A stretch of DNA of 64,000 nt from Deltaproteobacteria bacterium (GTDB lineage: Bacteria; Desulfobacterota; Binatia; HRBIN30; CADEER01): assembly GCA_029262455.1 (NCBI GenBank), contig JAJCZJ010000044.1, positions 1-64,000 of the forward strand, in the 5' to 3' direction. The notes under the pieces are model-generated. The model had not been told where the DNA came from. It did no database searches and saw only the letters and a program-made list of their open reading frames with translations. This document shows, piece by piece, positions 14,452 to 51,850 of the stretch; positions within the stretch are counted from its first letter, which is position 1; each line of letters starts with the position of its first letter. The position numbers and the translations under genes are program-made.

Positions 14452-14588
14452 CTGCTCCCTCAAAAGAAAAACACCAATGAACCCTTTAGACGCCTAGAGT
14501 AGTACAACACCGGAGATTGTCCAACGGCACATGGCTCGCCCGATGGACTTCGTTGCGGCCTTTTGGGGTAGCTGCTAAACGCCCCTCC

Positions 14589-22580: not shown

Positions 22581-23012
22581 TCACTGCTCGAAGTCTTCGG
22601 CGCCTGAATCATCTTGATCGCCGGCTGGATCTACCCAGTCGAAGTCACCTTCACGCGCCAAGATCATTGCCGAAAGGGACTCCCGCAAGCTCGCCGGAGC
22701 CGAACCTTCGAGGATCGCGATCGCAAACTGCTCGGTCTGTAGATCCGTATCGCCCGCTTCCGAGAAATGCGCCAGCTCGACAACCACTTCTCCGAGACGG
22801 CATTTGTACGTCGCCTCTACGACTGTGTAGTCCACCTGCCCGTTATCCAGAGTGCAGCCACCGGGAAGGGTCTTTCCCTTGCCGAGCATCTCCAGGAGCA
22901 AGTCCTCTTGGCCAGGCGGAATCGCCGGGCCGTCGGCCGCGAACAGCGGGAACGAACAGAACGCCGAAACGAGAAGAGCGGCGGCTAGCATCGCTTTGAA
23001 CCGAGTAAACAC
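22581..23012 (-). CDS. Small exported protein consisting of the shared domain (Cx17C form)
   Basis: A 143-residue protein. GTG 23012 gives a signal peptide with a charged start (FTRFKA) and hydrophobic core ending LFAA; ATG 22991 is an alternative with a weaker n-region. The mature protein starts 'PAIPPGQEDLLLEMLGKG' and runs through 'GCTLDNGQVDYTVVEATYKC', in which the two Cys are 17 residues apart. It then has 'TEQFAIAILEG', a helix ending 'EGDFDW', and an acidic tail. Nearly the whole protein is one copy of the domain found in neighbouring rSAM and membrane proteins. It follows the rSAM gene at 23.1-24.3 kb, which carries the cytosolic form, so an enzyme-substrate or carrier relationship is plausible. 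Confidence 0.75.
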   Translation of the reverse strand: MFTRFKAMLAAALLVSAFCSFPLFAADGPAIPPGQEDLLLEMLGKGKTLPGGCTLDNGQVDYTVVEATYKCRLGEVVVELAHFSEAGDTDLQTEQFAIAILEGSAPASLRESLSAMILAREGDFDWVDPAGDQDDSGAEDFEQ

Positions 23013-23123
23013 AGTTGAGACTTTCGCACAGCCGGCCCCAGAATGTCCAGAACCAACCCTATCAATCCAGGCAAGCCGCCAAACCACCGACCACCAGGCT
23101 CGGTAAACCCAAAAACAGGTCTT

Positions 23124-24266
23124 TCATGCGTTCAGGAGGGGTTCAAAGTTGTCCAGTGGTTCGACGGCTACCCCACGTGCCTCAAAGGCCGCCGTCAATT
23201 GCCCAATGGTCTCAGCAGCCCACTCCCCGGTCCTATACTCCTGCAGTCCGTTATCGTCGTAGAGGTGGTGCACCCGCTCGCCGACGTAGAGTCTGTCGAG
23301 GCGAACCGCCCGCACGAACGGCGCAACGTTCTCGACCATGCGATCGACGTTCATCGGCAAGACCGGTTGAATCACCGCAAATGTACTGACGCCGGCGGAG
23401 TGGAGAGCTCGCAGCGCCGTCAGGCGATCCTCAATCGCGTCGGCGCGCGGTTCGAAGATTTTGCGATACTTATCCGAGTCTGTCGGGATGCTGAATCCGA
23501 CCAAGGCGCGCGGGAAACGCCTGAGCAGGTCGAGGTCTTGTAGAATCCGCGGCGCGCGCGTGAGAATCACCGGCGCAAGTTCTGTTTCGACCAGAACTTC
23601 GAGGCATTGGCGGGTGATCCTGTAGCGCTTCTCCGCCGGCTGATACGGATCGGTCAGGATCGGGCTCATGCGCACGATCCCACCGCTCACGTTCTGCACC
23701 TCGCGGCGCAGCACTTCAGCGGCATTGATCTTGACGTCGAGCGACTTACCCCACGGAAGCTGGGACAGTCCTTCCAGGCGACGCGAAAAGTCGGCCCGGT
23801 CGATGACGTAGCAAAACGGGCAGGCAATCATGCACCCGACGTAGGGGTTGATGTAGTAGTGCCCCTTGCCCTCGGGAATCAGCACGCGATCGACAAAGAT
23901 CTCGCGCACTTCCGGGCCGCCCCCAGCCGGACGTTCAGGATCCGGCAGCGACACCTCGCGACGTCGAATCACATCGAGCACTGCCTCGACCATGCGACGG
24001 TCAACGTCGTTGAGGTCCGAATCTTCGAACAGCCGGTCGACACAGACGTTGAAGCGTGCCGTTCGCGTATAGCAATCCAGAGCTTCGTTGCGCATCTCAC
24101 ACTCGATCGCGATGCACACGTCGTCCCTCTGAAAGCTGACAGAGATCGCCTGCTCACAATCCCAAGAGACCAGCTGCCAACCGGCCGGTACGGCGGTCCC
24201 GTCGAGAAATGGAGCAAGCAGCTCGCGGGCAATCCCGTCGAGCCGACGCGGAGCGGGTTCAGTCAT
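23124..24266 (-). CDS. SPL/Rv2578c-like radical SAM protein with N-terminal shared domain
   Basis: A 380-residue protein. Residues 10-105 are a cytosolic copy of the shared domain: 'LLAPFLDGTAVPAGWQLVSW', 'AIECEMRNEALDCYTRTA' with 'RFNVCVD', then a helix ending 'IRRRE'. The rSAM part opens with 'HYYINPYVGCMIACPFCY', cysteines near 144, 148 and 151. That opening matches the spore-photoproduct-lyase/Rv2578c branch ('INPY.GC...C.YCY'). Later segments 'LTDPYQPAEKRYRITRQCLE' and 'IPTDSDKYRKIFEP' support this branch. Members of this group include DNA-lesion repair enzymes, but the added domain points to a different substrate here. The ATG at 24266 is supported by the domain boundary. Confidence 0.85.
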   Translation of the reverse strand: MTEPAPRRLDGIARELLAPFLDGTAVPAGWQLVSWDCEQAISVSFQRDDVCIAIECEMRNEALDCYTRTARFNVCVDRLFEDSDLNDVDRRMVEAVLDVIRRREVSLPDPERPAGGGPEVREIFVDRVLIPEGKGHYYINPYVGCMIACPFCYVIDRADFSRRLEGLSQLPWGKSLDVKINAAEVLRREVQNVSGGIVRMSPILTDPYQPAEKRYRITRQCLEVLVETELAPVILTRAPRILQDLDLLRRFPRALVGFSIPTDSDKYRKIFEPRADAIEDRLTALRALHSAGVSTFAVIQPVLPMNVDRMVENVAPFVRAVRLDRLYVGERVHHLYDDNGLQEYRTGEWAAETIGQLTAAFEARGVAVEPLDNFEPLLNA

Positions 24267-24306
24267 CCTACCAAGGTTTAGACGGCTGTCGCGGCGCTGA
24301 CAATGC

Positions 24307-24693
24307 TTATGACAAAGCGATCCAGTGGGTCAGGATCCAAAACCGCGTGAAAGAGAAGGCAGTGGCGAAGATCCAGGCACCAGAAAAGCTGGTCAAAGTA
24401 CCCGGCTCGGAATCCCTTCCCCGCAGCCAACGCCCAAGAAGATGCATCAAGCTTGCGGTGATCAGCGGCGAAACAAGGACGTTGAGTCCAGTAATCTCAC
24501 GCCCAAGTAGCGGCTCGGGCAAGACAGCCGTCGCGAGCATCCCGGCAAGGCCACCCAACGACATGCAGCCCAAGTAGGCCGCCCACCGATTCGTCGATCG
24601 GCGACGTCCCAGCGAGTGCGCGGCACTCTCGCCAAGCAACTCGAAAGAGAGCTGAGCAACGACTTCGATCAGCAGTTCGACGAGGAATTCCAT
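24307..24693 (-). CDS. Small integral membrane protein, function unknown
   Basis: A 128-residue protein with about three hydrophobic segments: 'EFLVELLIEVVAQLSFELLG', 'AYLGCMSLGGLAGMLATAVL' and 'VLVSPLITASLMHLLGRWL', plus a C-terminal hydrophobic helix. I do not recognise the family. ATG 24693 is used because residues before it are not membrane-like. It lies 40 bases upstream of the rSAM gene on the same strand and is divergent from a GT-C-like gene, with a 177-base intergenic region that may hold two promoters. Confidence 0.6.
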   Translation of the reverse strand: MEFLVELLIEVVAQLSFELLGESAAHSLGRRRSTNRWAAYLGCMSLGGLAGMLATAVLPEPLLGREITGLNVLVSPLITASLMHLLGRWLRGRDSEPGTLTSFSGAWIFATAFSFTRFWILTHWIALS

Positions 24694-24870
24694 TCGGCTC
24701 GTCTGTAGAACCCCCCATCGAAGCGCAGTCAATGGAAACTCAAAGAGAATTGCCTCGGATCGCCGGAGCGCTCCAAACCTGCCGCCGATTGCACCTCGAC
24801 GTAGGTTCTAGAATAGTCTCCCTCCACAGCCAGTACCGACGATTACCGACGTGACCATAGACCGAGCAAG

Positions 24871-26850
24871 ATGGATATCCTGAGAGCGGCGGTCGCCGTG
24901 GTTCTGCTCGGCCTCGCTGCGCTGCTCCTGGTGCCGGGGCCGCCGGAAAAACCCGGCGTCACCTGGGCGGATCTCATTGCGCCTCTCGCGGTCGGTGAAC
25001 CGCTCGGCCGCGGATTTGTCCTCTCGCCGCCTCGGCGCGGGGAGGCGCACGATGTCGTCTACGTCGCGCGCCGTTCCGCCGCACCAAGCCAAGCCGAGGG
25101 ACGGGTCGAGATTCACGTCGTCGATCGCGGACGTTGGAACGGAGTTCCCGAAACGCGCAGCTTCGGCATCGCCTGGGAAGTACCGCCCCGCGGTTCGTCG
25201 ATCATCACCTCACCGGAAGAATCCGGCGCGGTGACCCGCTTGCTTTTCGACGCCATCGCCACGAACGACACTGGCTTTACATCGGTTGACTCGATACCAC
25301 TCACCGCAGAACCAGCGGCCCCCATGATCGTTCGCGTGCTCGACCGATTAGCAAGCCCGCGCGGAAAAATCGCCGCCATCACGACTTCGCTCGCGCTCAT
25401 TCTGCTGATCGCACTCCCGTCCGGGCCTCCCCTGGTTGCCCTAATTCTCTTCGCAATCAGTCTCGCCATTCGAGTTCCGGTCATCGATCTCCCCTTCGCA
25501 CACGACCAAGATGTGCAGCGAATGCTCACCGGCAACTCGTCACTTACAGATATCGCCACCGGAGTCGGCCTACAAGATCGCCACCCGCCGCTCTACTTTT
25601 TCATCCTGCACTGTGCCCAGTGGTTCGGACAATCCGAAGCCATCGGCAGAGCCCCAGCTGTCCTCGCCGGCGCTCTCGCCGCGCCAGCGCTGGTCATCGC
25701 CTCCGTCGCGATGGTTGGTCGCGCAACCGCCGCTACGGCGATCGCCGGGCTCGCCGTAGCAATCTCGCCGCAATTGGTCGCGCGTTCGCGCGAAGTCAGC
25801 GGGATCCCCCTCTACGGCCTGCTCTTGCTCGTCGCCGCCGCTTCTCTCGTCGCGGCGTGCCGTCGGGCCACACTGCCGCGCCGCCTCACCTTGGCCGCCT
25901 CCCACACTCTCAGTCTGTTCACCTACTATCTCGCACCATTCGTCGTCGCAGCACACGCCGGTGCATTGTTCTGGCGCCGCCCGACAGGAAACGTCGCACG
26001 CGCTTTCATTTCCGGCGTCGTCGCTGGGACGCCAGCCCTGATACTCGGCATCGCAACTCTTCTGCGCGACTGGAGCGCTCGCGACGTCGCACGCGCTTTC
26101 CCCGCGATCGCCTGGGGCGAACACAACCCAATTCAAATGGGCGTCGAGATGGCACAGATCGCTGTCGACGCCTTTGGGCCAATCCTGCTCGCGGCTGTAC
26201 TCATCGCCGCACTCGTCGGACTTCGATCTCGTGACTTCGCGACGATCGTTCCCGCACTCGGCGTCCTCGCCACATTCTTCGCGGTCGCACTATTGTCGCC
26301 AATCGCAAGAGTGCAAAGCTACTACTTCACCTCAGCTCTACCGCTGGCAGCACTGCTCCTAGCTGTCGTCCCAGCTCATGTCGGTCGCTGGACCGGCTAC
26401 GCCTGGACCGCGCTCCTGATCATCGCAATCGGATTCACTACGGCTCCCCTCGCCGCCGCCAACCGCACGATCTATCTGCCCGATTCCGACGCTTTCATGC
26501 CACGCTTCGCCGCAGCGATCATGGATCGACCGGAACAAACCGTGGTCACCATCGCTCATTACGACAAGACTCTGCTGGCCTATTACCTTGCCCGGGCAAA
26601 CGATCGCAGTATCAACTGGAGGAACTGGGAAGCCTCGGCCAAGAAGATCATCCCTCTGGTCAAAGTTCACGCACTTCGTATCGGCGCCGCATCCAAACTC
26701 GTGGCCGAGCTAGACCATATCATCGCGGAGGGAGCAGCTCTCGTCATCGAGCGCGACGCAGTCACAATTCCCGAAATTCAAAGACGACTCGACGCCTGCG
26801 AGATTCTCCTCGCCGCTCCGACCGGCAGACTGAAACTCTGTCGTGGTTGA
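24871..26850 (+). CDS. GT-C-type membrane glycosyltransferase-like protein with N-terminal shared domain
   Basis: A 659-residue protein. A first membrane anchor ('AVAVVLLGLAALLLV') is followed by a periplasmic region from about 33 to 140 that matches the shared domain: 'DLIAPLAVGEPLGRGFVL', then 'GRVEIHVVDR' and 'ETRSFGIAWE'. Around ten further hydrophobic helices form a GT39-like core, with 'DLPFAHDQDVQRML' in the first catalytic loop and 'DRHPPLYFFILH', a pattern common in GT39/ArnT relatives. The soluble tail contains 'DYDKTLLAYYLARANDRSIN'-type sequence. The opening of its extra domain is strikingly similar to the C-terminal domain of the 42.6-44.5 kb rSAM protein ('LIAPLALDQPFADGW'). Confidence 0.7.
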   Translation: MDILRAAVAVVLLGLAALLLVPGPPEKPGVTWADLIAPLAVGEPLGRGFVLSPPRRGEAHDVVYVARRSAAPSQAEGRVEIHVVDRGRWNGVPETRSFGIAWEVPPRGSSIITSPEESGAVTRLLFDAIATNDTGFTSVDSIPLTAEPAAPMIVRVLDRLASPRGKIAAITTSLALILLIALPSGPPLVALILFAISLAIRVPVIDLPFAHDQDVQRMLTGNSSLTDIATGVGLQDRHPPLYFFILHCAQWFGQSEAIGRAPAVLAGALAAPALVIASVAMVGRATAATAIAGLAVAISPQLVARSREVSGIPLYGLLLLVAAASLVAACRRATLPRRLTLAASHTLSLFTYYLAPFVVAAHAGALFWRRPTGNVARAFISGVVAGTPALILGIATLLRDWSARDVARAFPAIAWGEHNPIQMGVEMAQIAVDAFGPILLAAVLIAALVGLRSRDFATIVPALGVLATFFAVALLSPIARVQSYYFTSALPLAALLLAVVPAHVGRWTGYAWTALLIIAIGFTTAPLAAANRTIYLPDSDAFMPRFAAAIMDRPEQTVVTIAHYDKTLLAYYLARANDRSINWRNWEASAKKIIPLVKVHALRIGAASKLVAELDHIIAEGAALVIERDAVTIPEIQRRLDACEILLAAPTGRLKLCRG

Positions 26851-26907
26851 CCGCACCATGCCAGCGCGACTAAACCGGTGCATCTATCAACAGACTGGTA
26901 CGACTCG

Positions 26908-27453
26908 ATGATGAAAAGCCTCGCCAATACGCGGTGCGCCGCGCTTCTAGGAACACTTCTGGCTCTCCTGGCCTCGTCGCCAGCCCACGCCGATGAGACC
27001 CCGACCGATACCGAGGGCAAGGGGCAGTGGGTCATCCCACCGGAACGCGAGCAAGTCCTCGGCGGAATCCTGGGGGTCGGTGACGAACTCACCGACAATT
27101 GCAAACTCGGCAACGGCGACATTCGGTATTCGATTATCAAGGCTACCTATATCTGCGACGGCAAACCGTTCGAGGTGGAGTTTGCGCACCCGGACCAGGC
27201 AAACACGGCACCGAGCGCGACGACCAAGAACTTTGCAATCACCGCGACTGACAAAGGCATCCCGCCCGATTTGCTCACTTCGCTCCAAACCCGCGTACGC
27301 GACAAAGAAGGGGACTTCGAGTGGCAGTGGATCGCGCCCCCAAAGAGCGAGGTCGAAACCGCGTTACCTATCGACGGCGTGCTGCTCTACGCCGCCGCGG
27401 CGGCCGCGCTTATCGGAATTGGCGTCGTCGGCTTCATCCTGCGCAAGGCCTGA
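26908..27453 (+). CDS. Small exported, membrane-tailed protein of the shared domain (Cx17C form)
   Basis: A 181-residue protein. A signal peptide ('TRCAALLGTLLALLASSPAHA') leads to the domain 'WVIPPEREQVLGGILGVGDE', then 'NCKLGNGDIRYSIIKATYIC' with 17 residues between the cysteines, 'KNFAITATDKG', and a helix ending 'KEGDFEWQW'. A C-terminal transmembrane helix ('AAAAALIGIGVVGFILRKA') would hold the domain at the outer face of the inner membrane, with a short basic tail inside. ATG 26908 is chosen; 26911 is equivalent. It follows the GT-C-like gene on the same strand after 57 bases. Its last 90 bases overlap the end of the convergent gene. Confidence 0.75.
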   Translation: MMKSLANTRCAALLGTLLALLASSPAHADETPTDTEGKGQWVIPPEREQVLGGILGVGDELTDNCKLGNGDIRYSIIKATYICDGKPFEVEFAHPDQANTAPSATTKNFAITATDKGIPPDLLTSLQTRVRDKEGDFEWQWIAPPKSEVETALPIDGVLLYAAAAAALIGIGVVGFILRKA

Positions 27454-29094
27454 GTCCCGCCCGATTTGATACATCACGAACCGTTGTCGACGCGTCGCCG
27501 GTTCGCAGATCCGACGACGCATCTCGCCGACGTAAATGCTGCAATCCATAAACGGCGCTGCAATCACCTCGCGTTGCGCAAGAACAGAAACCTCCCGTTC
27601 GGCCAAAAGTCGCATACACTGCTCGCGTGTGTAGGGATAGACGCGCTGCTCCAAGCACGGCAGCCCGTAAAAGAAGGCGCATCGACCTTGCGCGCAAACT
27701 TCTGTGTGGCCCCCCTCCAGGAAGGCCGTCAGGTTGACCAACTTCACCCGGCCTCCGAGTTCTCGTACCCCGGCTAGGGTCATCGCGTACTTGTTCTGCA
27801 GCTCGATCGTCGAATGGGTGCGCCGCCTGAGCAGCACGTCATCGGGAACGATGATGTGCGTCACGGCCGCGGGCAGGGAAGCGAGCTGCGATCGGTAGAA
27901 CTCGTGCTCCAAGATCTCAATGTGCTGGGTCGTCAATCGATCGGAGACGACCAACGGCTGCAAGGCGAAGTAGGCCAAACCTGCCCAGCCAGCGAGTCGC
28001 GGCAAGAGTCTTTCGCTGCCCAGCAATCGGGTCAGCGCAAAACTCGCCAACGGAATCAACAAGACGAGCCAGCTCGCAAACACGCGCGACGCGCCGTGAC
28101 CCGACTCAGACAGGAGCGGTAGCCCGAGAGCGGCAAGCCAAGACCCGATGGCCAGCAACCCGACCCACCAGCCTCCAAACCAGCTGCCCACCAAGGATCC
28201 CAAAGCGAGCGCTGGGACGGCCACAAAAGGATTCGCAACGACATGCTCGGCCACCATCACAAGCGCGGACGACAAGCGGACTGGGTTCTGAAACGACAAC
28301 CCAGCCGTCGTGCCCCAATAGCCGTAGCCAACGACCAGAAGGAGCGTCGCGGCAAGTGGCGCGGCAACAATTCGCCACCGTAACCGCTCGCGCCGCAATA
28401 GGATGAGACCCAATGCCGGCGCTGCAAAGAGGACGTTCTCGTAGCGAACTTGTGTGAGCAACGCCAAGCCCGAAAAACCCGCCAGATAGCGCAGTCGTTC
28501 GATCGCTTCACAATCCTCTTCGCCTGTCCCGCTGTCGAACCCGATCAATACGTACGACGCGGCAGTGAGGAACACTGAAAACACCGCGAGTGCGTCCGAT
28601 GCGGAAAACAGGATATGCAACGGAGACACAGCAAATAACAGGGCCGAAACAGCGGGGAACGGTCCTCGCAAGAAGGAACGACAGAACCCATATACGAGTG
28701 GGACCGTCAGCACGCCCACGACGCGGTTGAATGCGATCGCGTGCTCGATGTCGCGCCAACTCAGCTGGTAGAAAGGCGCGTAGAATTGCGCCGTCCCGAA
28801 GTGGCCCTTGTACCCGACCAGCAGCCGACTGTAGGGAATTCCGCCAAAATCGAGAAGATTTGTCGCGGCTCCGAAACGGAAAACCGCCGCCAGCAAGGTA
28901 ATTGCCGAAACTATCAGTATTTCCCGCCGTCCCGATTCGCGGCGCCAGCATCGATTCCGGCGGACCGCCCAAACAACGACGACAGCTGAGCAGATGACGA
29001 AGATCAAGATATTCGACCGCACGGCCATCAGCCAGAACGGGAAATCGTCGTCCCCCATTCCGAACAAGACATCGAGCCATCGGTCGTTGTGCAC
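27364..29094 (-). CDS. Polytopic GT-C-type membrane protein
   Basis: A 576-residue protein with about ten hydrophobic helices and a soluble tail of about 180 residues. It has 'LLDFGGIPYSRLLVGYKGHF' in the first loop, 'NRVVGVLTVPLVYGFCRSFL' and 'SALLFAVSPLHILFSASDAL', segments typical of GT39-like proteins. The tail has 'IIVPDDVLLRRRTHSTIELQ' and several cysteines ('CAQGRCAFFYGLPCLEQ'). Its start is uncertain: GTG 29094 or ATG 29058. Its stop lies 90 bases inside the convergent gene, so the last 30 residues, which are polar and low in character, may be an accident of read-through. It follows the SGNH gene on the same strand. Confidence 0.65.
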   Translation of the reverse strand: MHNDRWLDVLFGMGDDDFPFWLMAVRSNILIFVICSAVVVVWAVRRNRCWRRESGRREILIVSAITLLAAVFRFGAATNLLDFGGIPYSRLLVGYKGHFGTAQFYAPFYQLSWRDIEHAIAFNRVVGVLTVPLVYGFCRSFLRGPFPAVSALLFAVSPLHILFSASDALAVFSVFLTAASYVLIGFDSGTGEEDCEAIERLRYLAGFSGLALLTQVRYENVLFAAPALGLILLRRERLRWRIVAAPLAATLLLVVGYGYWGTTAGLSFQNPVRLSSALVMVAEHVVANPFVAVPALALGSLVGSWFGGWWVGLLAIGSWLAALGLPLLSESGHGASRVFASWLVLLIPLASFALTRLLGSERLLPRLAGWAGLAYFALQPLVVSDRLTTQHIEILEHEFYRSQLASLPAAVTHIIVPDDVLLRRRTHSTIELQNKYAMTLAGVRELGGRVKLVNLTAFLEGGHTEVCAQGRCAFFYGLPCLEQRVYPYTREQCMRLLAEREVSVLAQREVIAAPFMDCSIYVGEMRRRICEPATRRQRFVMYQIGRDSGLAQDEADDANSDKRGRRGGVEQHAVDR

Positions 29095-29145
29095 GGCAGA
29101 ACGCGTAGCCGATTCAAGCTACCGGGGATAGAGTCGCGGAACGAT

Positions 29146-30777
29146 TCACCGCGCTTCGAGCAAAGACTGCCACATTGGTTCGGCAGCCAAAGTCTTGGCG
29201 ATGTGTTGCGCCGAACGCTCGTTGCCAACAGAAGTCGGGTGGCCGTCGCCGGGGATGAACTCGTCGGCCTGGGTCGTCCGATTCGGAACCAGGATCGCGT
29301 TCGGCACCCGCCGCACCCTCGCCGCCACCGGCGGATCCCACGGCTGGAAGCCAAACAGGACCAACAACGGTTGGCCCGAGGACTCCTTGCGAATCCCCCC
29401 GAGCCGCTGCAGCTCCCGGTCCAAATGGTCCAGCCCTGCCTGCGTTGTCTCCCTCTCCAGATTCACTAGTGCCCACAACGACTCGACCGAGTCTCCGATC
29501 AGAAATCGAACGAAACTGTACGCCCCATAGCGTCGTGCATCGCGACGCGCATCCTGCTCGTCCCAGCGCGACAGGTCATTCGCGAAGGTGAGCCCGAGAA
29601 TCACGACATCAGGCGATAAGCGCGTCGTCACCTCGCGATACATCGACACATGGGAAGCTAGATTGTTGCCCGGGATCCCGACGTTGAGCACCTCGAAACG
29701 GAGACCCGGCCAGCGCTGACCGAGCGCGCGTTCCAAGTGCGGGCGCAGGGAGCCCTCGTAGTTGACGCCAATCCCGAAGACGAAGGAGTCACCAATCAGC
29801 ACAACGCGCACCACGTCATCGTCGGCGTGATCTGCGAAATCGGGATAGCGAAATCCACGCCCGTTGATTCGGTACGTCACCGGGCCTCCGTCGCCCAGTG
29901 ATTCGCCCATGGTCGTATTTGGTGGATAAGTCGAGAGCGAACCAAAATAGTGCAGATCGTCCGCCAACAAGCTCGCGTGATAGCCGCAGGCAACGTAGGC
30001 CAACATCAATCCAACTGCCCATGCCCGCAGCAGCCCGCCTCGCGCAAAGCGCCCAATCCCGGCGACCGCTACGGCGCTCGCCAGAATGAGGCCAAAGCTC
30101 CCGCCCAAGTTCAGGGCAATCGCGGTCGGCGAACCACCCTGGAGCATCGAGCCAAACGCTGCACCGGTCAGGCGTAATGCCGCGTGCACGCATCCGATGA
30201 ACGCCAAAGCCAAGAAGGATGCCAGGACCACCGACCCAAGTCCGGAGCTCGAAGTGCGCACGGGCGCTCCGCGCCGCACCGACCACAGGAGGAGCCCGGC
30301 AACGAACCCGGCTACGGCCAAGCACAAGGAGGCAATCGCGGCGGCTCCTCCGATCGAGGAGTAGTACGAATTCTCCTCCTCGGCCCCGGGCAATGGCGTC
30401 CACGACCATTCGAAGCCTGTTTCTCGTGCCCGGATGCGGTCCAGCAAGGCGGTCGACAACTCGTCCGGAGCGTCCCCCTCCACGACGACGAGCGCGAAGC
30501 GATCGGTCGTCAGTTTCGCGGCCGGCACCACAGACGGGTGCCGGAGCTCGTAGACAGCGACGCCGGATGCGCAGTCATAACGGCTGCGAATGAACGTTCG
30601 ATCTGCGCCGGCACCCGAAAATCGACACGAAGCGGGCAACTCCGCCCCGAGTCCTAACATCTCGCCGAGCAGCGACTCGTAGCCCGGCGGAATCACCGCC
30701 AGCCCCCGACTCTCGTCGCCAACCGCAGCGCTCGTGGAAATAGCCACCGAAAACCAAAACAAGATCGCCAGCCGCAT
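29146..30777 (-). CDS. Membrane protein: exported shared domain + helices + SGNH/GDSL hydrolase
   Basis: A 543-residue three-part protein. A signal peptide is followed by a Cx17C copy of the shared domain (about residues 28-130): 'LAVIPPGYESLLGEMLGLGA', 'SCRFSGAGADRTFIRSRYDC', 'TDRFALVVVEG', ending 'ETGFEWSW'. Four or five membrane helices follow. The C-terminal 240 residues are an SGNH hydrolase: 'VVLIGDSFVFGIGV' is block I with the catalytic Ser, 'NVGIPGNN' block II, 'LGLTFANDL' near block III, and 'GDGHPTSVGN' supplies the Asp/His pair. SGNH domains on membrane proteins commonly act as esterases or O-acyl modifying enzymes. It is divergent from the GT-C-like gene at 30.9 kb. Confidence 0.8.
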   Translation of the reverse strand: MRLAILFWFSVAISTSAAVGDESRGLAVIPPGYESLLGEMLGLGAELPASCRFSGAGADRTFIRSRYDCASGVAVYELRHPSVVPAAKLTTDRFALVVVEGDAPDELSTALLDRIRARETGFEWSWTPLPGAEEENSYYSSIGGAAAIASLCLAVAGFVAGLLLWSVRRGAPVRTSSSGLGSVVLASFLALAFIGCVHAALRLTGAAFGSMLQGGSPTAIALNLGGSFGLILASAVAVAGIGRFARGGLLRAWAVGLMLAYVACGYHASLLADDLHYFGSLSTYPPNTTMGESLGDGGPVTYRINGRGFRYPDFADHADDDVVRVVLIGDSFVFGIGVNYEGSLRPHLERALGQRWPGLRFEVLNVGIPGNNLASHVSMYREVTTRLSPDVVILGLTFANDLSRWDEQDARRDARRYGAYSFVRFLIGDSVESLWALVNLERETTQAGLDHLDRELQRLGGIRKESSGQPLLVLFGFQPWDPPVAARVRRVPNAILVPNRTTQADEFIPGDGHPTSVGNERSAQHIAKTLAAEPMWQSLLEAR

Positions 30778-30868
30778 GACCGCGTCATCAGCGCACGTCT
30801 CGAACGCGCAGGCAATCGCCGAGCGTCGAGTGGTTTACGACCAACGTCGTTTATGGCAGGCGTCATCC

Positions 30869-35355: not shown

Positions 35356-35390
35356 TCTGCGATAGCAAAGACAGTCAGAGAGGCGAAACG

Positions 35391-37136: not shown

Positions 37137-37256
37137 ACAAAAGAACAACCAAAAAGGTATTCGCTTCGTAGCCGGAATCGCCGACAGATGACACCGCAAC
37201 GCCGGATGCGAGCCATTGGGTCAGGCTCTAGGCACGTGCTACGGTCTCGCCCCAAG

Positions 37257-39257
37257 GTGACGATTTCCACGACAACAAGATCTGGCGACGACGGAGAGTC
37301 GAGCGGCATTGCCGGCTGGCACATCGAGCGCGTTACCGGCGCTTTTCCAACCGCGGTTTCGTTTTGGCTCGCACGCGAGGACGGCGATGCGAAGATCCAG
37401 ATCCTGGTCGGCCAGCGCGGCGAGGCAGAGTGTCTCAAGGCGACACCGCTTGGCGACGTTTCGTACAGGCAGTTCTCGGGAATCGGCGAAAGAGAGGCAG
37501 CCAAGGTCACCCTGGCCTTCGCCAACGGGCTCGAGGCAGGCAACGTGCCGGTGGCGCGATATTTCCCTCACCTTTCGACTGGTGCAGACGTCGCCGACGA
37601 CCAGTCGCGTTTACGCCTCGAGAGGATCATCCAACCGGCGATCCCCCTCTTAGGCGACGCCGGGAGCCAGTTTCGCGAAGTCGCGACCCGCGCCAAACCG
37701 ACGACCCTGATCTTCGATCCGCCGGGAATCGCCGAGTTTCTGGAGCCCGAAATCGCCGTCGACGGCATGGCTATTCTCGGCTGGGTGTTTCGCGGTGTCT
37801 ATCTGCCGAGCGTAGCGCGGCGCGAGAGCGCCGACTTCAGCACGTTCATGCTCGAGTTCACCCGCGACGACAGCGAACAAGCGGCGCGGCTCACACTAAA
37901 AGTCGATGGCAACGACACCAAGGCCTTCGGACGCTGCGGGCGCCTTTGCCTCGGCATCGCCCACGACGGCGAAGTCGATACGGTACCTGTTGAGGTCGCG
38001 TCGCTCGCGTCCTGGATTGTCGCGCTTCTCAGGATCCGATCCTCGGCTGAGCTCGACATCGAGGTGGCAACGGCCCTGACAGACCTGCGAGCGATTTCCT
38101 ACCCAGCTCGAACCGACGCCATCGAGACCCAAATCGAGAGTGACGAATCGGGCGATATCGCGACCGTAACTGGCAACGCAAAGCCACCCGCACTCAATCT
38201 CGCGCTTGACCCTGAATGCGGTCAACGCTGCGTTTTCTGTTCGGTCAAATCGTACGTCACCCCCACCGATGCAGGCGATACTGATCTCAACGATGTACTC
38301 GTCCAACTCGACCAAGCAAGGCAGCGCGGAGTTGGTGAAGTTCGTCTCAACGGCATTGATCCGCTGCGGCACTCCCGTGTGCTGGAAGTCGTCGACGCAA
38401 TTCGCGACGCCGGTTTCCCAGCCCTGACCGTATTTTCGACCGCACGCCGTCTAGCCGAAGACGATTTTCGCAAGGCCTTCCTCGACCGCGTACCTCGCCA
38501 ATTCGAGATTTTCATTCCTCTCTACGGGCTGAGTGCCGAGGTCCACGACATCGTAACCGGCACGCCAGGTGCTTACCGAGAGGTGCAGTCGGCAATCGAT
38601 GGACTTCGCAAGGACGGTGCAGGAGACGCGATTCGCATTTCTACGATCTTCGTCCAACAAAACGTCCACGAAATCGTCCCCATGCTCCGCAAGCTGCGCA
38701 GCGAAGGGGTCCATCACGTCGACGCTCACCTGCCATATCCCATGCGCCCGACGACCCGTGACCCGTACGTCGATTCCGCGGTGCGCGAGGCGGATCTCCT
38801 CGATCGCCTCCTCGCCGACCTCGAAACGATCCCAGAAGACGACGGGCAGTGGGCCCTGCCGATCATCACGGGCGCTTTCCGGCACCCGTGCATTGCGTGG
38901 CGCGCCGAGAGCAGAGGACGCGTGCCAGCACTCGGCGCAGCCTTTCCCGAAAGAGCATTCCCCCTCGCCGGCACAGAATACCGCAGCGACCAGTTCGTAC
39001 ACGCCAGCGGCACCGCAGGCGAAGGAGGAGCCTTCGCCGTCGCCGTAGTGGATTGCCCACACACGGATCGCTGCGCCCTCGCACCGGTGTGTCCCCGCGA
39101 GCACTACAGCGTCTACGCCGAGCACTACGGCCTTGAAGAATTCGAGCCGGTGCACCCATCAGAACTCTACCAGGCGAAATCACACCGCCGGCAAACCGAC
39201 GACTCCCCCGTCGCCAACCTGTGGAGCGGATTACGCAGCAAGCTCCGCGGCCGCTAG
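37257..39257 (+). CDS. Radical SAM protein with long N-terminal region, possible shared domains
   Basis: About 666 residues. The rSAM domain begins 'LALDPECGQRCVFC' (C321, C325, C328 from this start), but the usual GGE strand is 'VRLNGIDPLRHSRVL', so the Glu is replaced. The C-terminus has 'CPHTDRCALAPVCP', an auxiliary Cys group. The first 300 residues look like two beta-rich units, 'IAGWHIERVTGAF...AVSFWL' and 'DSEQAARLTLKVDGND', which may be diverged copies of the shared domain. The start is poorly defined. GTG 37257 fits the domain edge, whereas ATG 37188 or 37206 would add Arg-rich residues that look non-coding. It is divergent from the GT-C-like gene. Confidence 0.7.
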   Translation: MTISTTTRSGDDGESSGIAGWHIERVTGAFPTAVSFWLAREDGDAKIQILVGQRGEAECLKATPLGDVSYRQFSGIGEREAAKVTLAFANGLEAGNVPVARYFPHLSTGADVADDQSRLRLERIIQPAIPLLGDAGSQFREVATRAKPTTLIFDPPGIAEFLEPEIAVDGMAILGWVFRGVYLPSVARRESADFSTFMLEFTRDDSEQAARLTLKVDGNDTKAFGRCGRLCLGIAHDGEVDTVPVEVASLASWIVALLRIRSSAELDIEVATALTDLRAISYPARTDAIETQIESDESGDIATVTGNAKPPALNLALDPECGQRCVFCSVKSYVTPTDAGDTDLNDVLVQLDQARQRGVGEVRLNGIDPLRHSRVLEVVDAIRDAGFPALTVFSTARRLAEDDFRKAFLDRVPRQFEIFIPLYGLSAEVHDIVTGTPGAYREVQSAIDGLRKDGAGDAIRISTIFVQQNVHEIVPMLRKLRSEGVHHVDAHLPYPMRPTTRDPYVDSAVREADLLDRLLADLETIPEDDGQWALPIITGAFRHPCIAWRAESRGRVPALGAAFPERAFPLAGTEYRSDQFVHASGTAGEGGAFAVAVVDCPHTDRCALAPVCPREHYSVYAEHYGLEEFEPVHPSELYQAKSHRRQTDDSPVANLWSGLRSKLRGR

Positions 39258-39280
39258 CCTACCGACCACACCCGCCGATC

Positions 39281-39300
39281 GGGTAGGCTAAAGCCTACCC
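39281..39300. repeat. Perfect GGGTAGGCT-AA-AGCCTACCC hairpin
   Basis: A 9-base-pair stem with a 2-base loop lies between two convergent genes, and the minus-strand stop codon falls inside it. A related hairpin lies at 44583-44598. With 'GTAGG' beside both, this is a dispersed REP-like family. It may also end transcription in both directions. Confidence 0.75.
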
Positions 39301-40698
39301 TACGAGATGCGCTTCGCCCGCGATCGGCTTGGCGCAGGCTTCGCCGTACAACTCGACGTCCGCTACGCGGACACCGAAACACGATTTGCGTACCGAACAC
39401 TTCTCACATGCCGCCAAGTACGTGCGGCCTTCGATTTCCTCGGAGATCGGCGTGAGCTTGGTTATTCTTTTGTCGGCGCCGAACGCGCACAGTGGCGGGC
39501 CGCACGGACCGTCCAATCCACTGACCTCGACACCGATGTCGAACGCCTGATCGATGACCGACGCGAGTACCGTACGCAATCGCTCTGGTTCGGGAATGAT
39601 CGTCGGCAACAGGGTGCGATCCCACGGATCCGTCGGCTGCGACAGCATGAGACTGCGGCCGGACGGATACTCCCCGAAATTGCTCATCAAGAACTCGGGC
39701 ACGCCCTGCAGATGATCAATGCCCTCGCGCGTCATCACACAGTTGAACCGCACCGGCACTCCCGCCTCGAGCAACGCTTTGCAGCCGGCCACGGTGCGCG
39801 GGAACGTCCCCGGTGCCCTGGTAATCGCATCCGATGTCGCCGCGTCGCCGCTGTGCAACGACACGAAACAATCGGTCATCCCAGCGTCGCGCAGCCGCTC
39901 GGCGTGACCGGGCTTGGAAAACTGAATCGCGTTGGTCTCCAGAGTGACCGAGAGAAAGCCGAGCTCGCGCGCTCGTCGAACATAACTCTCGAGCTGTGGG
40001 TCAAGGGTCGGCTCGCCGCCGGAAATGATCAACCGGCGCGCGCCCGCAGCGAACAGGTCTTCGATCCAAACCAAAACCTGCTCGGAACCGTATCGTCCCC
40101 ACTTGCGATCCTGCCAACAGATGCCGCAGTTCTGGTTGCAGTTGAAACCCGTACGAACCAAGCCCTGCTCGCCGACCCCCGGCACTAGCTGTCGATAGAA
40201 CGCCAACGGAACATCGACCGGCAGATCCGCGACTTTCTTCGCCACGACCATCGCAGCGCGCCACTTCTCTTCAGTGATCGAAGCTTGTACGCGCAGCGCC
40301 ATCGCGCGCAGCTGGCGCTCGAAGCGGTGCGCTGCCGAATGCTCGTTGACGACCCCAACCTGGACGACCGGGACACGCCCCTGCGCGGTCGGCAAGGCAT
40401 CGCCGGCAGCCTTCTCGATCCGCAACCGCGCAAACGGCGACTCCTTGCCCAGCACCAGATCGATCCCGCGCTTCGTCGACCCAGCCGCCAACAGGGTCAA
40501 GCCAAAGGCCGGCAACTCGATCGGCAGCGACGGAGCACGGACCAAAATCTTGGCGATCTCCGAATGGAGCGCCGCAACCTCTCCCTGGAGCCCAACCGGG
40601 TCGCGAAACGCAACGCCGGCCATGGCTTCACCAACGCCTCGGTTGACCCGAGCGTCGTCGCCAGACAGTTGAGGCTCCTTGTCGAGAGTCACCGACAT
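39295..40698 (-). CDS. Radical SAM protein related to the fusion enzyme at 33 kb
   Basis: A 467-residue protein. 'TGFNCNQNCGICWQDRKWG' provides the cluster cysteines near residue 186, 'LIISGGEPTLDPQLESYVRR' the SAM-binding strand, and 'VTLETNAIQFSKPGHAERLR' and 'FVSLHSGDAATSDAITRAPG' closely parallel the rSAM part of the 32.9-35.4 kb fusion. 'CEKCSVRKSCFG' near the end is an auxiliary-cluster-like group. The N-terminal 150 residues ('IELPAFGLTLLA', 'IDLVLGKESPFARLRIE') could be a diverged shared domain; I am unsure. It lies 39 bases after the stop of the Gfo/Idh-DUF483 gene on the same strand, so the two are likely co-transcribed. Confidence 0.8.
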   Translation of the reverse strand: MSVTLDKEPQLSGDDARVNRGVGEAMAGVAFRDPVGLQGEVAALHSEIAKILVRAPSLPIELPAFGLTLLAAGSTKRGIDLVLGKESPFARLRIEKAAGDALPTAQGRVPVVQVGVVNEHSAAHRFERQLRAMALRVQASITEEKWRAAMVVAKKVADLPVDVPLAFYRQLVPGVGEQGLVRTGFNCNQNCGICWQDRKWGRYGSEQVLVWIEDLFAAGARRLIISGGEPTLDPQLESYVRRARELGFLSVTLETNAIQFSKPGHAERLRDAGMTDCFVSLHSGDAATSDAITRAPGTFPRTVAGCKALLEAGVPVRFNCVMTREGIDHLQGVPEFLMSNFGEYPSGRSLMLSQPTDPWDRTLLPTIIPEPERLRTVLASVIDQAFDIGVEVSGLDGPCGPPLCAFGADKRITKLTPISEEIEGRTYLAACEKCSVRKSCFGVRVADVELYGEACAKPIAGEAHLVG

Positions 40699-40737
40699 CG
40701 TCCGAGCCTAGCAGTCCAGAGAAAGGCGGGACACCTC

Positions 40738-42591
40738 TTAGCTGGACTTCACCAAATTTGCCGCATCCCCGAACGGCGCGATCAATCCCAAGGCGGGGTC
40801 GATACGCTGCAGCTCGAGCACTCGATCGCGGCCCTTGGTGACTTCCAGTCCGGTTCTGCTGAGCCGCAATCGGTCGCCCTTGGCGACCGCCGAGACCAGC
40901 GCCGCCCATTGCCAACCGCCGGCCGAAGTCGCCTGCACCCCGCGGTAGCTGACCAGCTCCCCGTCCGATTCACCAGCGAGGACCAGCTGGTGTTCGTGAT
41001 CAAAGTACAAAACCGGCTGCGCCAGGTTTTCACGAAGGCCTGTTGCCAGCGCCGTGTGAACACGGCCCAGCTCGGTCAGTGCCGACCGTGACCAGCTCAG
41101 GGCCTCCTCGCACGAGTATGAACACGGATAGAAGGGAGCCACCATGGTGTGGAGGTTATTCAGCTCCCACGGCCATGGTGTCGCGCTCGACCCGTCAGCC
41201 GCGATCGTGCGAGCGAAGCTCTGATAGCGATTGCCCGTATTGTTCGAACGATCATCCTGGTCGGCGAACGCCGCAACACAGCAACTGGGGTAGCCGACCA
41301 ACTCTCCCAGCTCACGAATCGCGTCGCTCGGGTCGGCCTCGGCTTGCAGGTACGCGGCTCGCTTGGCGAGATCCGCATCTCTCGAGATGTAGAGCTCGAC
41401 CCGTGGCTCACCTCGGTCGCGCTTGTCGGTCCACCGGTCCTGCGCAGCGACCTCGACCAGTCGTTCCCGCTGCTCGCAGTGAACCTCGCCGAAATGAGAA
41501 AGCGTCGACTCCACGTCCTGCGGCAACACTGTGAGGAATACCACTGGCTTGATGCCGGCACGGAATGCCCACAACTCGAACGGCTCCTCCGGCAGGTCGA
41601 CGTCGAGACGCCGGACGATCCCGGCACCGCGCGGAAGCACACCACTCAGGCCAAGCCTGTCGAGCAGGATTTCCGGACGACGAGACGCGACCGACGCCGA
41701 CTGACGCAAACGCCGCGCACTCACTGGCAGGGCCGATGGCATCAAGGCTCGGCAGGCGGCGGCGAGGCGCAGGGCCTTCGCGGCGTCGCGCAGATCGTCA
41801 CCGTGCTGCGCGTCCGGTATCAACTGCGCCAGCGCCCGCACTGCCGCGGGTGGCGGCGTGTTCGGTGCAATCAAAGCGGTCTCCCCGACGACAACGCTTT
41901 CGCGACCTTCCTCGTACTGCCACAGAGCGGTCTCGACACCCCCTTCGACACGCGCGCAAACACTTTGCCCGTGCGGCCGCAAGCGCAGATCGATCTGCCA
42001 GGCGGACCCGCTCTCGAGTGCCACCCGCAGCTCGCCACGAGACGAATGGGCGGCAATCGGTCGAGCGTCCGGCAACAGAAACCGCACCAGCGCGGCAGCG
42101 TGGATCAGAACCTCACCGACGTCGCCGCCCGCTTGCTCCGGGAGGCCGGCCATGTCGAGAAAGAGTTTCCCCGAGCCGACCCTTCGCAGAATGGCCCCAA
42201 CAGCACGTGCCCCGCGCAGCGTTGTCCAGCCGTGTGCGACGCGGACCCGAGCGGCGCCAACACCGAGCTGCGCCTCGCACAGAGCGTCGTCCAGCGGCGC
42301 CTCGACGACGCTCTCACGAGCCGCCCGCGCCAAGACCAACGAAGCCGCCAAACCGCTGCGCGGCGGCAAGGCAACCGCAAAAGCGGCTTTCGGCTCGCCC
42401 GCCAGGGCCTCTTCGATCGAGGCGAAATCGGGCAGATCCGGGGCCACGGAGGCAGCGCCGCGCTGCACTGTGGCCACAACCCGCAATCGAGACGAGCGCC
42501 GCAACGGCTCGAGCCAGGCCTGCGCACGCTCACCGGCGCCGACCAGGACCACGGGCCGCGCCTTATCGGCTTCCGAATCTGAATTATTCAC
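40738..42591 (-). CDS. Gfo/Idh-like domain fused to a DUF483-like domain
   Basis: A 617-residue protein starting at GTG 42591, with GGAAG eight or so bases upstream. Residues 1-300 follow the Gfo/Idh/MocA plan: 'PVVLVGAGERAQAWLEPLRR' nucleotide loop, then 'VVEAPLDDALCEAQLG' where active relatives have the E-K-P motif, so the catalytic Lys is Ala here. The C-terminal 270 residues contain 'FRAGIKPVVFLTVLP', 'RVELYISRD', 'LVGYPSCCVAAFADQ' and 'YPCSYSCEEALSWSR', matching DUF483-type proteins and the stand-alone protein at 54.9 kb. The Gfo/Idh part may bind nucleotide without turnover. Divergent from the 42.6 kb rSAM gene by only 53 bases. Confidence 0.8.
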   Translation of the reverse strand: MNNSDSEADKARPVVLVGAGERAQAWLEPLRRSSRLRVVATVQRGAASVAPDLPDFASIEEALAGEPKAAFAVALPPRSGLAASLVLARAARESVVEAPLDDALCEAQLGVGAARVRVAHGWTTLRGARAVGAILRRVGSGKLFLDMAGLPEQAGGDVGEVLIHAAALVRFLLPDARPIAAHSSRGELRVALESGSAWQIDLRLRPHGQSVCARVEGGVETALWQYEEGRESVVVGETALIAPNTPPPAAVRALAQLIPDAQHGDDLRDAAKALRLAAACRALMPSALPVSARRLRQSASVASRRPEILLDRLGLSGVLPRGAGIVRRLDVDLPEEPFELWAFRAGIKPVVFLTVLPQDVESTLSHFGEVHCEQRERLVEVAAQDRWTDKRDRGEPRVELYISRDADLAKRAAYLQAEADPSDAIRELGELVGYPSCCVAAFADQDDRSNNTGNRYQSFARTIAADGSSATPWPWELNNLHTMVAPFYPCSYSCEEALSWSRSALTELGRVHTALATGLRENLAQPVLYFDHEHQLVLAGESDGELVSYRGVQATSAGGWQWAALVSAVAKGDRLRLSRTGLEVTKGRDRVLELQRIDPALGLIAPFGDAANLVKSS

Positions 42592-42644
42592 GATGTGCTT
42601 CCGTTGTGGGCATCGGCGGTCGGTTCGACTATAGAGGAAATTGT

Positions 42645-44534
42645 ATGTTCGAACATCGCTGTTCACCGGACCACCCGGTCGCCATTCTAAGCTTCCACAG
42701 CCACAGTGACCGGTCCTTCCTCGATGACCGGGAGCTGGCCCTCCTTTCCGGCGATCTGCGTCACGATGGAATAAAGAACGACCTCGTCCTCACGGTCATG
42801 ACGGCCGGTCAAGAACAGAGCCCTGCCAACGCTGAAATCGAAGACCGGCTGGTGGCAGAGTTGCGCAACTACGACCCCATCGTCTACGAGCGCGTCTGGA
42901 GCCCGCAATTGGTCGAGCGGCTGCGCGCCCAACTGCCCGACAAAGTCTTCATCGGCCTGCGCGGCGAACACGAGCTCCTCGACAGCGCGCCGGCCGACAT
43001 CTACTGCAATGCCGAGCCGCGGCAAATCCTCGCGCCGCTGATCCAGTGGCTGCGCAATTCGCGCACCGATCCGCCCGCAGGAACTCTATTTCGCGACCGC
43101 ACCGCAGACTCCCAGAAGGGCACATGGCAGCCTCCCACAACGACAGCGGAGGTCCAGCCGAGCGATCGAACCTATGCTCCCAACCTACGCCCCCTCGTGG
43201 TCAATCCCGAGCTCTTGCCCAAGATCCGTACCTTCTCCGTCACCGGCAACATCGGCTGCCCCTTCCAAAACGACGCACGCGACAATCCTCTCTACGAGGG
43301 CACCGATATTCCGCAACAGTTCGGCCGCGGCTGTGCGTTTTGCACGACCGGCAACGTCTACGAAGGTAAGCCGAACAACGAAACCGCCGCCTTCGTGCTC
43401 GAGCAGATCCGCCACGTGCGCAGCACCGCACCCGAGCTTCAGCTGCTGGTTCTCAAGGACCAGAATCCGTTCGGCTACCTGACCGAAGTCGTCGAGCGCT
43501 GCGCGCAAGAGGACCTTCGCGATTTCGCCCTGCTGCTGGAAACCCGCGCCGAATGGTTCCTGCGCAACTCCAAACGCTTCGAGCGCGCACTCGAAATCGC
43601 CAATCAGATCAACGTCCGGCTTGCGCCGTTCTTGGTCGGTATCGAGAACTTCTCACAAGCCGAGCTCGATCGCTTCAACAAAGGCATCAAAGCCGATCTC
43701 AATGTCGAGTTTCTCGAGACTTTGTGGAAGTGGAAGGAACAACACGGCGACGCTTTCGATTTGTCACACACTGCCTTCGGCTTCATCTTGTTCTCGCCAT
43801 GGACGACGCTGCAGGACCTCGAAATCAACCTCGCGGGGATCCGGCGAACGAAGCTCGACCGCCTGCGCGGCAGTCTGCTCTTGTCACGGGCCCGACTCTA
43901 TCCGGACACAGCACTCTACTATCTCGCCAAGCGCGACGGTTTGCTGGTCGAAGACTTCGCTTCGGAGAGAGACAACGCCTCGCAACGTTACGGCTACTAC
44001 CCCTCACATCCTTGGAAACACGTAAACGCCGACGTCGCACACTTTGCCGAGCTTGCGACTGAAGTTGCCGAACGCAACAACAGCCGCGACATGGTCAATC
44101 TCTTCGACGCTCTCCTCACCGAGTTCCAGAGCCGCGGTGAAGAATGGTCCGCAATCACTGCCGAAGACATCTGGCAACGCTACTCGAAGCAACACGGCGA
44201 CCGGCAGTCCGGCGGCAACGGGGCGGCCCTACAGCCGGCAAGCGAAGATTTCCGAGCCCGCTTCGCCCGCTTGATCGCTCCGCTCGCGCTCGATCAGCCA
44301 TTCGCCGACGGCTGGACCATCGCCGAGATCCAAACCCGCCCAGGTCAGGTGCGGGTTCACGTTCAGCACCCAAGTGAAGCCAAACTCGTCATCGAGTTGT
44401 CGCCGCGCGGCGAAGCGCCCCGCTACCGCCGCTCGCGCCACTACGACATCCGTGCCCAAGGGTCTGAGTTCACCGCCAGCCAAAGCGAAGGGCTGCGCGT
44501 ACTTGCGGAATCGATCACGACCAACGACTCTTAG
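42645..44534 (+). CDS. Radical SAM-like protein with split CX24CX2C motif and C-terminal shared domain
   Basis: A 629-residue protein starting at ATG 42645 with GAGGAAA six bases before it. A much longer open frame upstream is antisense to the Gfo/Idh gene and is not used. The N-terminal 190 residues resemble a B12-binding or related Rossmann domain. The cluster region reads 'GNIGCPFQ', 20 residues, then 'GRGCAFCTTG': cysteines C205, C230 and C233, instead of CX3CX2C. 'LLVLKDQNPFGYL' and 'LSHTAFGFILFSPWTTLQD' suit a B12-rSAM barrel. The last 85 residues are a shared-domain copy: 'RLIAPLALDQPFADGWTIAE', 'AKLVIELSPRG', 'YRRSRHYDIRA'. Confidence 0.8.
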   Translation: MFEHRCSPDHPVAILSFHSHSDRSFLDDRELALLSGDLRHDGIKNDLVLTVMTAGQEQSPANAEIEDRLVAELRNYDPIVYERVWSPQLVERLRAQLPDKVFIGLRGEHELLDSAPADIYCNAEPRQILAPLIQWLRNSRTDPPAGTLFRDRTADSQKGTWQPPTTTAEVQPSDRTYAPNLRPLVVNPELLPKIRTFSVTGNIGCPFQNDARDNPLYEGTDIPQQFGRGCAFCTTGNVYEGKPNNETAAFVLEQIRHVRSTAPELQLLVLKDQNPFGYLTEVVERCAQEDLRDFALLLETRAEWFLRNSKRFERALEIANQINVRLAPFLVGIENFSQAELDRFNKGIKADLNVEFLETLWKWKEQHGDAFDLSHTAFGFILFSPWTTLQDLEINLAGIRRTKLDRLRGSLLLSRARLYPDTALYYLAKRDGLLVEDFASERDNASQRYGYYPSHPWKHVNADVAHFAELATEVAERNNSRDMVNLFDALLTEFQSRGEEWSAITAEDIWQRYSKQHGDRQSGGNGAALQPASEDFRARFARLIAPLALDQPFADGWTIAEIQTRPGQVRVHVQHPSEAKLVIELSPRGEAPRYRRSRHYDIRAQGSEFTASQSEGLRVLAESITTNDS

Positions 44535-51834: not shown

Positions 51835-51850
51835 GGGCGCCTGCCGTACA

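Follow-up and report, generated by a model that had tools for sequence, protein, structure and literature searches.

The window analysed here, the first 64 kb of the 123,377-base contig C44, belongs to a 7.34-Mb, 127-contig genome assembly of a Deltaproteobacteria bacterium from Binatia, a class within Candidatus Binatota, and a segment of about 105 residues recurs in several of its proteins. Sequence comparisons confirm that this repeated unit is one undescribed domain, found, as an initial annotation of the window had claimed, on radical S-adenosylmethionine (SAM) enzymes, GT-C-type membrane proteins and small exported proteins. The observations are of homology between copies, a common order of elements in predicted folds, gene linkage, and co-occurrence with the HxsA4 and HxsB genes of the His-Xaa-Ser system. 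On these grounds we hold it to be an evenly balanced proposition that the domain serves an enlarged radical-SAM system of HxsA4 type in Candidatus Binatia as the module that recognises or escorts the substrate, in a scheme that would reach from the cytosol to the outside of the cell.

Copies of the domain and their predicted fold

Four strong copies lie in the window:
22626-22934, minus strand: domain copy 1, of IPPG type and with two Cys, in the small exported protein 22581-23012; tblastn, phmmer and profile search; AlphaFold2 (AF2) model with a predicted local distance difference test score (pLDDT) of 90.
27022-27336, plus strand: domain copy 2 in the exported protein 26878-27453, which has a C-terminal membrane anchor (by eye); tblastn, phmmer and profile search.
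30394-30702, minus strand: domain copy 3, N-terminal in the membrane/SGNH-hydrolase-like protein 29146-30777; tblastn, phmmer and profile search; AlgX/NonGDSL Pfam matches under the cut-offs.
35002-35325, minus strand: domain copy 4, N-terminal in 32881-35448 at residues 42-149 of the open reading frame and fused to Asp_Arg_Hydrox and radical SAM domains; phmmer, profile search and Pfam.

A tblastn search of the whole genome with the 143-residue exported protein of 22581-23012 returned 29146-30777 (E 4e-18, 41% identity), 26878-27453 (E 2e-14, 37%) and the N-terminus of 32881-35448 (E 6e-7, 34%), and, beyond these three and the query itself, no place at E<=1. Since the radical-SAM fusion is among the only three further places, the PPGQE and DF(E/D)W match between it and the exported protein does lie beyond chance, as had been supposed. 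Started from any of the four strong copies, phmmer recovered the other three at E<=0.01 among 752 six-frame open reading frames of the window, and in a search of 45 window proteins a main-family profile of 24 rows, these four included, matched them at E 2e-42 to 4e-32. The whole genome gave no further match at E<=10 to a profile of the four copies alone; in a search of the phylum that profile matched 2 of 395 genomes, namely its own and one with an E 0.008 match over 46 positions, which was not counted. In Pfam, neither 22581 nor 26878 matched any family at E<=0.1, and the domain regions of 29146 and 32881 were free of matches. Pfam and NCBIfam scans together produced no model spanning the domain, and its profile matched no PDB sequence with an E-value under 0.5; the earlier description of the domain as unrecognised thus holds. 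Judged by eye, three of the four copies sit on exported proteins, whereas copy 4 belongs to a cytosolic enzyme, shows no signal peptide and carries Trp and His in place of the Cys pair discussed below.

More distant copies, and a second domain within the radical-SAM fusion, are as follows:
23949-24221, minus strand: diverged copy, N-terminus of the PA0069-like radical SAM protein 23124-24266; hhalign 82-91% to the main family, AF2 element order, tile test.
44268-44528, plus strand: diverged copy, C-terminus of the radical-SAM-like protein 42645-44534; hhalign 82-85% to bridging GT-C-type copies, tile test.
24961-25269, plus strand: diverged copy, N-terminal after the first hydrophobic segment of the GT-C-type membrane protein 24871-26850; hhalign 91-92% to bridging copies, tile test.
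30956-31303, plus strand: weakly supported copy, N-terminus of the GT-C-type membrane protein 30734-32884; hhalign 47-60%.
6213-6413, minus strand: possible weak copy, C-terminus of the HxsC4-like radical SAM protein 6132-7484; hhalign 35-37%, tile test.
33739-34173, minus strand: second domain, between the hydroxylase and radical SAM parts of 32881-35448; hhalign 70-79% to the C-terminus of 6132 and 4-7% to the main family.

After the strong copies, the best-scoring window proteins with the 24-row profile were 23124 (E 0.0014), the C-terminus of 6132 (0.028), and the C-terminus of 42645 together with 8362 (0.14 each). In the profile-profile comparisons, for which hhalign E-values refer to single comparisons with their number not accounted for, two GT-C-type proteins from relatives had N-terminal domains that matched the main family at 97% and served as the bridge to the N-terminus of 24871, which compared directly with the main family reached 1-2%, and to the C-terminus of 42645. 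None of the control comparisons (reversed families, radical SAM and methyltransferase segments, HxsD, and the N-termini of 36999, 39295 and 13051) exceeded 10.7%, apart from reversed/reversed and HxsD/HxsD-like pairs, which are true relatives. The window was also scanned as 300 tiles cut from the 45 proteins, tiles holding a profile's own rows being self hits. Here the main-family profile ranked the N-terminus of 23124 (47%) and the C-termini of 6132 (34%) and 42645 (15%) as its top non-members, and a profile of the diverged, LLAPL-type form of the domain, built from 24 rows of which none came from the window, scored best on six tiles at the N-termini of 23124, 32881 and 24871 and the C-terminus of 42645, with the seventh tile at 6%. 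This deeper LLAPL profile matched the window form at 82-91% over 81-85 columns. The protein 42645-44534 has no Pfam match and weak NCBIfam matches to HpnJ and HpnR, and the subdomain at the N-terminus of 30734 stands C-terminally in proteins of relatives.

Ten copies had been listed at the outset. Plain searches bear out four (22581, 26878, 29146 and the N-terminus of 32881) and profile comparison a further three (the N-termini of 23124 and 24871 and the C-terminus of 42645); the N-terminus of 30734 and the C-terminus of 6132 are weak, and 13051-14451, a WelO5-type protein, is rejected at no more than 6% with any domain family (its best partner being the N-terminus of 36999, at 10.7%). Four further segments were considered and set aside: 8362-9495, whose C-terminal piece reached at most 3.6% with domain families despite the profile match, the high scores among its pieces coming from overlapping cuts; the N-termini of 36999 and 39295, at 9.7% or less with any domain family; and a second C-terminal segment, N2, at C44:93354-95234, at 7.7% or less. 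The idea that the resemblance is a chance likeness of short motifs such as PPGQE and DFEW, with no common origin, could appeal to the diverged copies in 6132 and 30734, which lie near noise, but it meets plain-search E-values down to 4e-18, the same element order in two structure models, and the background of tiles; already refuted for the four strong copies, it retains in our judgement next to no probability.

The AF2 model of copy 1 (pLDDT 90, from 12 sequences) has the order H-E-E-E-E-H, with a helix at 12-18, strands at 29-36, 40-47, 50-58 and 72-78, a helix at 83-99, and a short helix in a low-confidence tail. The model of the 23124 N-terminus (pLDDT 72, from 2 sequences) shows the same order, the comparison being one of element order and not of superposed coordinates. 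Among solved structures the closest neighbour of copy 1 is the C-terminal domain of RseB/MucB (Z 6.4, 3.2-3.3 Å over 81-82 residues, below Z 8), followed at Z 5.5 by SPLUNC1 and a KA1 domain. The models differ in their first neighbour, that of 23124 being SPLUNC1 (Z 6.7) with KA1 domains next; neither reaches Z 8 by VIA-align, and Foldseek found no match for copy 1 in the PDB at E<=0.001. Like the domain, the RseB/MucB C-terminal domain is periplasmic and arranges a helix and an antiparallel sheet similarly, but the score falls below the level that would separate relatives from a common arrangement and is too low to claim kinship, the family does not appear among the matches listed for the 23124 model, and the strong copies have no PF17188 match.

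RseB/MucB, SPLUNC1 and KA1 neighbours include lipid-binding proteins, and the domain might therefore bind a lipid or a polyprenyl-linked sugar and merely place proteins at the membrane. We consider this very unlikely, as scores below Z 8 may reflect a common arrangement only and lipid binding would leave the cytosolic radical-SAM fusions and the linkage to HxsA unexplained.

Of 26 copies, 21 have a pair of cysteines, Cys29 and Cys47, which the three radical-SAM-hydroxylase copies and two exported tetratricopeptide-repeat (TPR) proteins lack. In the modelled hairpin of strands 29-36 and 40-47 the two residues would face each other (36+40 = 29+47), and in the exported copies the pair is probably a disulphide.

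Linkage to His-Xaa-Ser genes

Four genes near the end of contig C44 match NCBIfam models of the His-Xaa-Ser system above their cut-offs: HxsA4 (NF038313) at 123036-123365 (102.6 bits, cut-off 55), HxsB at 111621-113174 (510.8 bits, cut-off 370), HxsD at 113406-113894 (60.2 bits, cut-off 50) and an HxsD-like gene at 113167-113409 (69.6 bits, cut-off 41). By these family matches, the end of the contig is an Hxs cluster. In PMC9062424, HxsB and HxsC are described as putative maturases with reference to Haft and Basu.

Across 148 Binatia genomes (G and L numbers below are our handles for genomes and loci), the window form of the domain occurs in 10, after removal of G479, whose match (E 0.006) contains two internal stops. 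HxsA matches at E<=1e-5 occur in 15; nine have the full leader (E<1e-50), G040 and G488 a partial one, and four weaker ones were left out. All nine genomes with full-leader HxsA4 lie within the ten that carry the window form (hypergeometric p 1.4e-13, a value that ignores relatedness). HxsB exceeds its cut-off in 12 of the 148, nine of them shared with the window-form set. The carriers belong to four families (f1, f4, f10 and f11), and several of the members listed for f4, f10 and f11 lack all of these features. The domain alone led to two genomes outside the set of 148, those of L084 (labelled Myxococcota) and L086 (labelled Deltaproteobacteria). HxsB exceeds its cut-off in both, and HxsD-like genes lie near it in two of the three stretches read.

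The diverged LLAPL/F-type relatives of the domain stand beside peptides that consist of a leader followed by (HGS)n-Trp. A three-row LLAPL profile found places in 12 of the 148 genomes; with three fragments dropped from 31 places, the remaining 28 comprise 22 standalone copies and 6 within larger proteins with HxsD-like flanks. A same-strand HxsA match follows within 1.2 kb downstream of 16 of the 22 standalone copies, at 113-326 bases in 15 cases, and five of the other six lie directly upstream of genes that are HxsD and HxsD-like by eye and of an HxsB-family gene scoring 280-350 bits, under the cut-off of 370. The partner on contig C66 of G054 lies near the contig end, its following gene being outside view. 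A twin-arginine (Tat) motif, SRR, is present in 16 of 18 standalone frames, the two without a Tat motif being from G004; a longer G004 frame outside this count (L177) reads SRRAF by eye. On contig C44 a Tat-type protein is encoded at 122609-122911. HxsA4 itself shows no signal peptide by eye.

For two of the six proteins that combine the domain with HxsD-like segments, these segments were compared with HxsD, giving 97% by hhalign. The radical SAM part of these fusions is confirmed by family search in L168 and L170 and was read in G013 and G053. Within the radical-SAM fusions the domain stands between two HxsD-like segments, the second one judged by eye, and the radical SAM part and a 2Fe-2S ferredoxin domain follow. 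HxsD and HxsD-like proteins are likewise small partner domains of the same system and stand beside the domain in the fusions, but they have no profile similarity to the domain families (hhalign at most 0.6%), and HxsD is rejected as its homologue; nor do TIGR03976 or NF038315 match 22581, 26878, 29146, 23124, 24871 or 41565-44534 in the NCBIfam scan.

One might instead take the domain for a generic protein-protein contact module of radical-SAM-rich islands that has no part in substrate recognition. Its diverse architectures, which include TPR proteins in two other genomes, would suit such a role; however, both of these genomes also carry HxsB, and 21 of 22 standalone LLAPL copies lie beside HxsA or HxsD/HxsB-like genes. 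We rate this explanation as distinctly unlikely.

Two further observations concern His-Xaa-Ser loci. G000:C46:76272-79000 (L190) is a second Hxs-like operon of the genome studied here, with a Tat-type domain protein, HxsD-like genes and an HxsB-family gene under the cut-off. Large exported-looking and partly Cys-rich proteins adjoin HxsA4 at L044-L046 (G004:C3) and at C44:100110-109084 (L018, L019), and are possibly partners of the peptide.

Host proteins and gene neighbourhood

At the loci fetched, the strong form is carried by small exported proteins, often anchored at the C-terminus, by proteins that are SGNH-like by eye (29146, G001, G027, G054), and by the TPR proteins of L084 and L086. 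Fusions of the kind foreseen for other genomes were also found: radical-SAM-hydroxylase proteins in G001 and G004 as well as the genome studied here, and GT-C-type membrane proteins in G013 and G002, the last two matched by a profile of window rows only at E 1e-29 and 1e-13, respectively. Strong GT-C-type copies were not found in the window.

Other genes of the cluster are:
20821-22527, minus strand: radical SAM-methyltransferase fusion adjoining the small exported domain protein; also in five relatives.
27364-29094, minus strand: GT-C-type membrane protein; relatives near domain genes in G001, G003, G012 and G013; no Pfam match above cut-off.
35391-37199, minus strand: GT-C-type membrane protein (by eye); no Pfam match.
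36999-39257, plus strand: HxsC-like radical SAM protein, its true start probably inside the open reading frame; family scans; in G001 and G004 its orthologues lie close to those of 32881.
39295-40698, minus strand: HxsC4-like radical SAM protein; family scans.

The 20821-type gene adjoins the small exported protein in the genome studied here and in G002, G003, G004, G012 and G027; the two share a contig at a greater distance in G013 and G053 and lie on separate contigs in G054. Proteins of this type occur in 11 of the 148 genomes, nine shared with the window-form set, and the match is limited to the C-terminal half in G027, G040, G053, G054 and G488. This arrangement raises an alternative in which the small exported proteins are themselves the substrates, with the 20821 enzyme modifying a conserved residue before export and the enzyme-borne copies acting as dimerisation partners. 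The adjacency in six genomes, divergent in G004 and with a half-match in G027, would agree with it, as would the invariance of Tyr45, Glu97, Phe100 and Trp102 in a set of 12 copies. Enzyme- and membrane-fused copies, however, retain these residues too, which therefore look structural, no separate variable core peptide was seen, and HxsA4 exists as a candidate substrate; we therefore regard the alternative as unlikely, if worth keeping in mind.

Several observations concern the surroundings of the cluster. Three WelO5-type proteins lie close together at 9634-14463, two with PF22814 matches (9634, E 2e-58; 13051, E 1e-66) and a third, 10484, matching 13051 by phmmer, near genes that are IDI-like and Rieske-type by eye. 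Within the radical-SAM cluster, 40738-42666 has a DUF483 segment and a weak oxidoreductase-like N-terminus. The region 248-3305 encodes two radical SAM proteins (by eye), relatives of which share a contig with domain genes in G002, and 49855-54847 encodes two large proteins, each with two stretches matching the radical SAM part of 32881.

A proposed role in peptide recognition

A discrete protein beside the precursor, or a fusion to the modifying enzyme, is also how the PqqD-like recognition element (RRE) stands in relation to its peptide and its radical SAM enzyme, and because the domain occurs in these same two settings we favour a recognition role. It differs from the RRE in its predicted alpha-beta4-alpha fold (beta3-alpha3 in the RRE), in having no Pfam (PqqD-type) match, and in occurring also on exported proteins; no RRE chain is among the structural matches listed, which excludes nothing. 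The initial annotation had spoken of a recognition or carrier module of an undescribed modification system. A module of that kind would best fit the data, whereas the system with which the domain travels is that of HxsA4, HxsB and HxsD, for which NCBIfam models exist. The standalone form of the domain stands beside such genes; the radical SAM proteins of the window, by contrast, fall far under the cut-offs (the best, 6132-7484, with 110 of 500 bits for HxsC4, NF038332, and 71 of 268 for HxsC), and no model of the system, whose other members are HxsB (TIGR03978) and HxsD (TIGR03976), was matched by the domain, by its Tat-type partner, by the fusion with the hydroxylase or by the GT-C and SGNH arm. 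Because the Pfam and NCBIfam scans gave no model of the domain, we describe the whole as a known system that has a membrane arm and a recognition-like module not described before. As far as the scanned libraries go, the part that lacks a model is the domain itself, on a Tat-type partner and on membrane and periplasmic proteins.

In the cytosolic part of the scheme that we propose, the domain on radical SAM enzymes (32881 with its hydroxylase, 23124 and 42645) would guide these to the HxsA4 peptide, and the HxsD-like/radical SAM/ferredoxin fusions outside the window would likewise be recruited to its leader and (HGS)n-Trp. As HxsA4 shows no signal peptide, the Tat-signal protein with the domain, encoded just upstream of many HxsA genes, is proposed to bind the peptide and export it folded; the Tat motif, the lack of a signal peptide on HxsA4 and the exported copies together suggest that recognition continues outside. 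There this peptide would be held for glycosylation or acylation, for example at the repeated serines, by the Cys-pair copies on anchored small proteins, GT-C-type proteins and SGNH-like proteins. The binding of the peptide, its escort by Tat, the disulphide and all of the chemistry are what we infer, and for serine glycosylation and hydroxylation we are guessing from the families to which the enzymes belong. The fullest version, in which one recognition domain follows one peptide across two compartments, from maturation by radical SAM enzymes and the hydroxylase in the cytosol through folded Tat export to anchored copies that present (HGS)n HxsA4 for serine glycosylation by GT-C-type proteins, seems to us possible but doubtful.

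A number of observations weigh against this assignment of the domain to the HxsA4 system. The window holds no HxsA gene and no run of at least three His-Xaa-Ser units, and the HxsA genes of the contig, at 104756 and 123042, lie some 60-100 kb from the domain cluster. Among 29 HxsA matches used for linkage (13 of 42 rows, with E >1e-13 and mostly repeat-only or overlapping, were dropped), 16 have a domain gene upstream and 13 do not. The co-occurrence statistics ignore phylogeny, and individual genomes depart from the pattern: G440 has HxsB above the cut-off and lacks the domain, G054 (82% complete) has both domain forms with no HxsA or HxsB match, and G040 and G488 combine a partial-leader HxsA and the LLAPL form with absence of the window form. 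In the L084 and L086 genomes, the three stretches read contain no recognised LLAPL partner, HxsA4 or His-Xaa-Ser run, one weak repeat-like match aside, and the exported copies of both lack the Cys pair. The LLAPL profile does not single out the exported strong copies 22581, 26878 and 29146 in the tile test, and its link to 23124 spans 20 columns only. Tat-signal models match some scanned frames, none at the curated cut-off, and no match of the HxsD fusions attains its cut-off either. The GT-C identity is itself weak, PMT_2 (PF13231) being matched by one of eight such proteins (E 3.5e-5), and 30869-32884 gave no PDB sequence match.

Were the proposed scheme true, a membrane-spanning assembly line for a ribosomal peptide, held together by a shared recognition element other than the RRE, would be a new principle. 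The domain would be a peptide-recognition fold unlike the RRE used in genome mining and would offer a handle for finding such systems elsewhere; by marking enzymes on both sides of the membrane, it would also list those to reconstitute with HxsA4.

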